Below are positions 55,976-57,120 of a DNA stretch of 64,000 nt, in pieces; position 1 is the stretch's first letter; each line of letters starts with the position of its first letter. Position numbers and translations under genes: made by a program. The notes under the pieces were generated by a model. That model searched no databases. It was not told where the DNA came from and saw only the letters and a program-made list of their open reading frames with translations. Source of the DNA: Clostridia bacterium (lineage in GTDB: Bacteria > Bacillota > Clostridia > RGIG6154); contig JAFQRW010000008.1 of the NCBI GenBank assembly GCA_017409875.1, positions 102,920 through 166,919 of the forward strand, written 5' to 3'.

Positions 55976-56004
55976 TTGCAATTTGTTTACATATATGTTA
56001 TACT
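55976..56004 (+). promoter_or_regulatory. Promoter of the structured RNA / coiled-coil gene
   Basis: TTGCAA (55976-55981), 17-bp spacer, TATACT (55999-56004). The expected start (6-8 nt later) falls at the first base of the long hairpin at 56011. Confidence 0.75.
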
Positions 56005-56010
56005 GTATTT

Positions 56011-56170
56011 GCGACACAACTTAATATTTAGACAAACTATGGGAGAAGTATTTTTATTTCGGTAAAAATGCATTCTCTATTTTGGCTTTCTCTTATAGTT
56101 TGTCAAAGTTGTGTCGCAGCAATTGGAGTTATGCATTTTTCAGTGCGTGGCTTCGGCTGCGCACTTTTTT
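56011..56170 (+). ncRNA. Long-hairpin leader or small RNA ending in an intrinsic terminator
   Basis: The outer stem pairs 56011-56022 with 56106-56117 (12 bp, perfect), 56031-56040 with 56095-56104 (10 bp, perfect) and 56041-56048 with 56087-56094 (8 bp including G-U pairs). An inner hairpin pairs 56050-56056 with 56063-56069. A second domain at 56142-56165 is a terminator. The RNA would be about 160 nt when terminated, or a leader of about 178 nt for the gene at 56189. I cannot match it to a named RNA family from memory. Confidence 0.65.
56142..56170 (+). terminator. UUCG-capped terminator inside the leader
   Basis: Ten-bp stem AGTGCG.../...CGCACT closed by C(TTCG)G and followed by TTTTTT, 19 nt before the start codon at 56189. 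Confidence 0.88.
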
Positions 56171-56188
56171 AATTTTGGAGGTATTTTT

Positions 56189-57106
56189 ATGAATAAAGAT
56201 CAATTGAAAAGTTATCTGGAAAAGTTGATTGAACTTGAAAAAGATAGATTTATGACAAAGGAATTGATTTCAAAAATTGACTCCCACAAAGTTGAGCCGA
56301 TACTAAAGTCTTATTGGGAAGAGATTGAGGAAAGACCTGTAATATATGAAGACGGATTTAGCTTTAAGCATCCTATATCTATTGCTTGCGGAGCAATATG
56401 CGCAATTCTCTCTATGGTTATAATGGGGATATTTGACATTGTTGTTCCACCTGTACCGATTGTATGCTATTTTCTTGGAGCGTTCTTTTTAGGGAAATTA
56501 GTTTATTCGGTTATGTATAAAGAAAAGATAGAGGAGATAAATGAGCGTAAACGTAAAGCTGAAAGAATTGCAGCACAGAGAAAAAAGCAGCAAAAAGACG
56601 CAAATATTCGTATAAAAAAAGAAAATCAGGAAGCCGAAAGAATAGCTGATGAAAAAAATTATATTTTAAATCAGGTGAGTTGGAAACTTAAAAATATATA
56701 TAGCCAACTAGAACAAAAATTGAAAGAATTATATTTAAATGATATCATCTATCCCAAATATAGAAATATTATTTCACTTTTGTGTTTTTATGAATATATT
56801 GATTCGGGTAGATGCTCAACTTTAGAAGGTGCTGATGGGGCATATAATCTATTTGAATTTGAACAACGAATGAATAAAATTTCAATTCAATTGGATACTA
56901 TTATTTCTAGTTTAAATGAGATAATGAATATTCATTATCAACTCTATACTGTTTTTAATCAAATAAATACAAGATTAACAGAGATGGATGAGAAATTAAA
57001 AACGATAGTGGGTGAGGTGGAAAGTATAGGTAGGGAGGCGGCAAATGCGAAAATGTTAGCATTTGCTGCAGCATATCACTCAAATGTGTTAGGAGATAAT
57101 AGTAAA
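56189..57106 (+). CDS. Two-TM coiled-coil membrane protein, unknown family
   Basis: A 305-residue protein from ATG 56189 (GGAGG upstream). Residues 1-60 are charged and helical. Two adjacent membrane helices lie at about 65-85 and 90-108. Residues 112-160 are a strongly charged Lys/Glu/Arg helix (RKRKAERIAAQRKKQQK). The C-terminal half contains YRNIISLLCFYEYIDSGRC, then STLEGADGAYNLFEFE, and a final coiled coil with IDTIISSLNEI-like heptads. The SGRC...LEG..GAYN...E block looks like a conserved core. No enzymatic motif is seen. A terminator (57121-57148) closes the unit. Location after a structured RNA suggests linked regulation. Confidence 0.75.
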
Positions 57107-57120
57107 TAATACTAATAAAA

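Follow-up and report, generated by a model that had tools for sequence, protein, structure and literature searches.

The window, by which we mean the whole 64,000-nucleotide stretch of Clostridia DNA analysed here, contains a compact unit made up of a promoter, a structured leader RNA that ends in an intrinsic terminator, a Shine-Dalgarno (SD) sequence and an open reading frame (ORF) for a 306-residue protein (Table 1). On inspection of the sequence, the promoter, the long hairpin, the UUCG terminator, the SD and the ORF are all found at the positions given in an earlier description made from the letters of this DNA (the sequence-only reading). That reading also described the unit as inserted after a tRNA operon. 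The operon upstream is real, but a gene of the 23S rRNA-intervening-sequence-protein family (PF05635; 55582-55941) intervenes between it and the RNA. The outer stem, P1, begins at the expected start point of the promoter and is followed by an upper stem and an inner hairpin.

Table 1. Elements of the leader and its gene, in window numbering
Feature	Position	Strand	Basis
Extended -10 sigma-A-type promoter, TTGCAA-N17-TATACT, with -10 TG	55976..56004	+	sequence
Whole structured leader RNA	56010..56169	+	covariance model match, 153.8 bits, E 8e-30
P1 5′ arm, GCGACACAACTT	56011..56022	+	two-sided changes in 8/12 P1 pairs, n=29 sequences
P1 3′ arm, AAGTTGTGTCGC	56106..56117	+	covariation count, alignment
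P3 inner hairpin, GUAUUUUUAU-UUCG-GUAAAAAUGC	56048..56071	+	minimum-energy (MFE) fold
Core segment C, AAAAAUGCAUUCUC, partner of segment D	56064..56077	+	cognate energies, two-sided changes
Toggle segment D, GGAGUUAUGCAUUUUU; anti-anti-terminator or 5′ half of antiterminator	56125..56140	+	
Segment E, 3′ half of antiterminator	56142..56156	+	cognate preference; formed in MFE structure
Intrinsic terminator, AGTGCGTGGC-UUCG-GCTGCGCACT-T6	56142..56170	+	two-sided changes in 7/9 pairs
Shine-Dalgarno, GGAGG	56177..56181	+	sequence
ORF of 306-aa protein, ATG at 56189	56189..57109	+	

The segment 56008-56175 has a minimum folding energy of -66.2 kcal/mol, compared with -32.1 +/- 3.6 kcal/mol for shuffled sequences (z = -9.5), and none of 200 shuffles folds as well; the region holds four terminator-like sites where 0.4 are expected. 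The hairpin and terminator of the sequence-only reading are present, but an alternative had been missed: the structure of lowest computed energy places the 3′ part in an antiterminator hairpin, not in the terminator. Segment E overlaps the 5′ strand and loop of the terminator, and AAAAAUGC is contested between the P3 inner hairpin and a pseudoknot.

No Rfam 15 family matches positions 56010-56170 at the gathering threshold, the best sub-threshold matches being at chance level, and the leader RNA has no Rfam match to a T-box. Nor was a conserved upstream ORF suited to leader-peptide attenuation seen on reading the copies; the window's ATGGGAGAAGTATTTTTATTTCGGTAA, which lies in the variable stem, is by this reading not kept in L009, L010 or L011. 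The motif is not described in the literature we consulted, although it could be among the unnamed candidates of a human-microbiome structured-RNA survey with 3161 intergenic motifs, whose main-text passages do not describe it (PMC8040213). A DNA search of 60 relatives matched the RNA in 15 genomes, frequently with several copies each. Alignment of 29 full copies followed, and a covariance model (match threshold E <= 1e-4) matched 99 of 391 Clostridia genomes, spread over 56 of 222 genera. When 398 genomes sampled across the phylum were scanned, which doubles as a specificity control, the only match was the window's own genome, with none outside class Clostridia. Deeper scoring gave 4-28 copies of the RNA per genome, and one genus, which named records suggest is Monoglobus, has 8-33 copies in 10 of 12 genomes. 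The RNA is best read as an uncatalogued, abundant family within a known class, that of attenuators or riboswitch-like RNAs.

The named records returned by an exact-pattern scan are nearly all metagenome-assembled genomes (MAGs) of gut Clostridia, Oscillospiraceae and Monoglobus. One contig titled Bacteroides sp. (L120, JAMPEQ010000012.1) carries the RNA and is probably a mis-binned Clostridia contig. Viral contigs gave neither a pattern match nor a protein relative, and plasmids gave no match. Two fecal 'phage' records match but do not demonstrate carriage by phage: L204 is ordinary chromosome, and L205 carries an integrase. Though deposited as a bacteriophage, L204 (MT835845.1) has YicC and Fe hydrogenases and is probably mislabelled. 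Within its own genome, the window's copy is unique at the DNA level, and three diverged copies lie elsewhere (L211, L217 and L223). These precede a short MKKFVIAFLLS frame, a 447-aa membrane protein that looks by eye like an O-antigen ligase, and a 171-aa protein resembling the target of L199, which is SLOG-like by eye.

RNAalifold applied to the 29 full copies found two-sided changes in 15 of 23 pairs. With P1, the pseudoknot and the terminator taken together, 97.3% of alignment cells are paired (35-53% in slid versions), two-sided changes occur in 18 pairs against 9.0 in shuffles, and 91 cells carry such changes against 23.6, a value reached by none of 500 shuffles. The covariance-model check suggested by the sequence-only reading therefore bears out a conserved structure with covarying stems. 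In the pseudoknot, core C (AAAAAUGCA..CUC) pairs with D (GGAG..UGCAUUUUU), and two-sided changes number 43 versus 7.3 in shuffles. Segment D pairs alternatively with E, the 5′ strand of the terminator; the inner helix of this antiterminator is paired in 92% of cells, and its covariation in the 29-sequence alignment is modest, the values being reached by 9-31 of 500 shuffles. The start of the terminator varies among 100 copies, which renders a fixed-register test of the antiterminator uninformative. By a register-free comparison of 157 copies, cognate duplexes are better than non-cognate ones by 2.04 +/- 0.24 kcal/mol for C:D and by 2.53 +/- 0.24 kcal/mol for D:E, compared with -0.34 to +0.22 kcal/mol for four control pairings. 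Certain diverged copies change both pairings jointly: in L066 and L025, core GCUUUG is matched by CAAAGC, and AAAUCAAAGC by GGCUGUGAUUU, and L211 and L217 from the window's own genome have GCGUAC-type cores in which C, D and E are altered together. The mean energies (antiterminator -19.9, terminator -16.6, C:D -15.3 and P3 -6.3 kcal/mol) describe a balanced switch. Two hallmarks of riboswitches were found, namely a structured 5′ leader that is conserved and tied to the genes behind it, and mutually exclusive folds in the expression platform, of which the antiterminator is the weaker on the alignment. With strong covariation, two mutually exclusive structures and a fixed spacing to the start codon, the attenuator- or riboswitch-like order first recognized from the letters alone holds up well.

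We consider it probable that the leader is a multi-copy cis-regulatory RNA of Clostridia controlling read-through of an intrinsic terminator, and the most fitting label for it is that of a riboswitch-like transcription attenuator. Conservation, covariation, both competing pairings, the spacing of promoter and SD, and the breadth of targets are directly supported by the data. Each gene would be driven by a self-contained module consisting of an extended -10 promoter, an RNA of ~160 nt and an SD. In the proposed ON fold, the inner hairpin P3 would form and D would pair with E as an antiterminator, letting RNA polymerase read into the gene, and in the OFF fold, D would pair with C in a pseudoknot inside the capped hairpin, so that E could form the terminator. 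C would be kept close to D by P1 and the variable stem. Segment D would thereby serve as the toggle, and a signal would act by making C:D more stable or by releasing it; the default fold is something we infer rather than show. The signal may be a small molecule, an ion, an RNA-binding protein or temperature and, if shared, would coordinate surface proteins and small proteins.

The association with genes is regular. A TTGNNN / TGnTATAAT promoter layout lies at a fixed distance upstream of the RNA in 157 copies, and a purine-rich SD position recurs among the gene-linked copies. An SD and an ORF follow within 130 nt in 123 of 174 non-identical copies; the other 51 have no gene at the usual distance, some because the contig ends, others apparently standing alone. 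The 123 target ORFs fall into 57 unrelated protein groups, counting a few short frames that may be spurious. Among 98 non-redundant targets, BspA-type leucine-rich repeats (24) and the copper amine oxidase N-domain (7) were found, and further types include lipoproteins, SLH, CHAP, fn3, dockerin, HtrA, zinc-ribbon membrane, LytTR and AbrB-like proteins. N-termini resembling signal peptides or transmembrane (TM) segments, as judged by a simple hydrophobicity rule rather than by SignalP, occur in 55 of 69 targets (80%) of at least 100 residues, compared with 16% of background ORFs (p = 1e-21); 29 of the 98 targets are shorter than 100 residues. Among the recurrent targets are three small proteins. 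The first, of 61-83 residues and Cys-rich (L010, L014, L023, L076, L096, L117 and L166), combines 'IDVTGI.L.PGN.GKDC.GNG' with a CCCDECNY..CC core and is present in 11 copies in the collection. The second is a soluble protein of 75-78 residues, 'MNIKVELLKNYISDFI...' (L108, L125, L009, L065, L097 and L164), and the third, of ~80 residues, has an AbrB-like N-terminus and a zinc motif (L030, L035, L136 and L137).

One subset of the attenuator reading, which we regard as tentative, is that the RNA may be a true riboswitch for a small molecule or ion, in which the P1/P2 core, an AAUAUU bulge and the CUCURUUU strand would bind a ligand and the C:D pseudoknot would thereby be stabilised. The CUCURUUU strand is ~90% conserved, which goes beyond what pairing explains, as pairing accounts for CUC only; the coupling of the terminator to a pseudoknot, the tandem copies and a regulon as broad as those of second-messenger riboswitches point the same way. 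Against a riboswitch in this strict sense, the stem is weakly conserved, an aptamer junction is not clear, and the target genes give no metabolic clue. The variable stem contains no compact conserved multi-junction of the kind typical for metabolite aptamers, so that direct ligand sensing by the RNA is a conjecture. SAM-II-like pseudoknots contain a U.A-U triple helix. By analogy, and speculatively, such a triple helix might arise in the pseudoknot here from the U-rich CUCURUUU strand together with the A5:U5 helix.

Another subset of the attenuator reading has the switch set in trans by a protein or small RNA, for example by standalone copies, with the RNA itself sensing nothing; this we think rather unlikely. 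It draws on the ~50 gene-less copies, 17 of which have a downstream motif like GCUCUGAUUGUCGCNACACAA that could pair with other copies. This motif is the reverse complement of the 3′ arm plus GGAGC, lies 20-60 nt past the terminator (L105, L163, L161, L190, L198, L203 and others) with the terminator of a convergent gene next, and trails 17 of the 51 gene-less copies versus 8 of the 123 gene-linked ones. However, the arm types (GCGACACAA and GCCAAACAA) differ even inside one locus, so trans pairing would not be uniform, and a trans-acting protein is disfavoured by the lack of a linked protein partner. It is improbable that the leader is uncontrolled, that is, a stabilising 5′ hairpin joined to the ordinary terminator of an unrelated small RNA: a stable small RNA could indeed consist of no more than a strong 5′ hairpin and a terminator, but such an arrangement does not account for conserved, mutually exclusive pairings, balanced energies and a fixed SD spacing.

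An unusual trait of the family is that it appears to travel as a promoter-to-SD module. Near-identical upstream regulatory DNA before non-homologous genes is what defines mobile promoters, and the same pattern was found here. The window's copy (L001) and a copy from another family (L124) are 90.6% identical in a 212-nt stretch reaching from the -35 region to shortly beyond the start of the SD, and the genes behind them are unrelated; L085 and L105 are 94.7% identical over 188 nt with unrelated flanks. Such near-identical units before different genes in different families imply that the whole module is shuffled between genes; for any single pair, mis-binning of a MAG contig is possible, but the pattern recurs. 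Tandem copies each have their own promoter and terminator, and L060 looks like a recombinant that has lost a second copy. Near-identical multi-copy units with unrelated flanks and an inverted-repeat hairpin would also suit a non-autonomous, MITE-like mobile element, whose hairpin would be a DNA feature with incidental effects on neighbouring genes. This account is very improbable: the unit ends at the promoter and the SD, beyond the inverted arms, rather than in terminal inverted repeats; instead of random orientation and distance to genes, 66 of the 123 ORF-bearing copies lie in sense orientation with the start codon 18-23 nt past the terminator; and two alternative pairings covary in an RNA-specific manner, with promoter and terminator conserved. 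Nor was a target-site duplication noticed. It is possible, although we hold it in some doubt, that the RNA switch is a mobile module which spreads within and between gut Clostridia as a complete unit of promoter, sensor RNA for a signal, terminator and SD, placing newly acquired genes for surface and small proteins under one shared signal. The terms mobile promoters and horizontal regulatory transfer are in use for related phenomena (PMC9944727, PMC5890482). Unlike mobile promoters, the moving unit here holds a complete RNA switch and occurs across bacterial families.

The window protein has two TM segments, a coiled coil and the C-terminal core 'KYRN..SFYEYL.SGRC..LEG..GAYN.YE.E.RQ', and it matches no family above Pfam cut-offs. 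A protein scan of genome contigs returned no relative; the small family to which it belongs, marked by a 'YRN..FYEYL.SGRC..LEG..GAYN' core with two TM segments and a coiled coil, is present in 13 of 391 genomes. The sequence-only reading had taken the RNA and this protein for a dedicated pair and named repeated linkage to one protein family as support. Neither expectation survives, as the RNA precedes 57 unrelated protein groups and, among 14 loci encoding homologues of the protein, only the window's and that of G185 have it. The RNA is hence not a partner of the window protein, which is one of many targets. That the two form a type III or type I RNA antitoxin/toxin pair or a defence module, as also proposed, is scarcely credible and is refuted as a general account: the order of promoter, structured RNA, leaky terminator and gene does resemble that of type III ToxI (PMC8860590), but the partners are unrelated, no ToxN/CptN/TenpN-type toxin (ToxN being an endoribonuclease) lies downstream, and tandem repeats like those of ToxI are absent. 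PADLOC gave weak matches to LmuB and LeoBC, probably through coiled-coil similarity, and its matches among the targets are scattered and weak.

The attenuator reading finds its closest parallels among known leaders. Transcriptional riboswitches whose terminators are coupled to pseudoknots, and second-messenger riboswitches with multiple targets such as those for c-di-GMP in Clostridioides difficile (PMC6366702, PMC11477304), share with this RNA a place in the 5′ leader and a choice between terminator and antiterminator; their copies are likewise numerous in a genome and occur in tandem, and their targets include surface and adhesion genes. They differ in sequence and structure (no Rfam match here), and in the present RNA every tandem copy is equipped with a promoter and a terminator of its own. 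The trpB ncRNA motif (RF04312; PMC11109978) likewise has an intrinsic terminator after a stem, and its antiterminator lies in a shoulder of that first stem, but the match to it is at chance level (18.9 bits versus a gathering score of 59, E 2.2).

The RNA brings along a promoter and terminator, is present in about a quarter of the sampled Clostridia and stands before unrelated genes for surface and small proteins, so that it looks like a shared gene-control device of gut bacteria. At up to ~30 copies per genome and without an Rfam entry, it would be an unusually abundant orphan regulatory RNA. Since the switch is compact and brings its own promoter and terminator, its signal can be searched for directly by in vitro transcription. 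The targets, which include BspA-like surface proteins, S-layer proteins, lipoproteins and small proteins, belong to the kinds of protein through which gut commensals encounter their host and neighbours. If whole switches do move between genes, this would be a concrete case of a regulon growing by the shuffling of an RNA control module.
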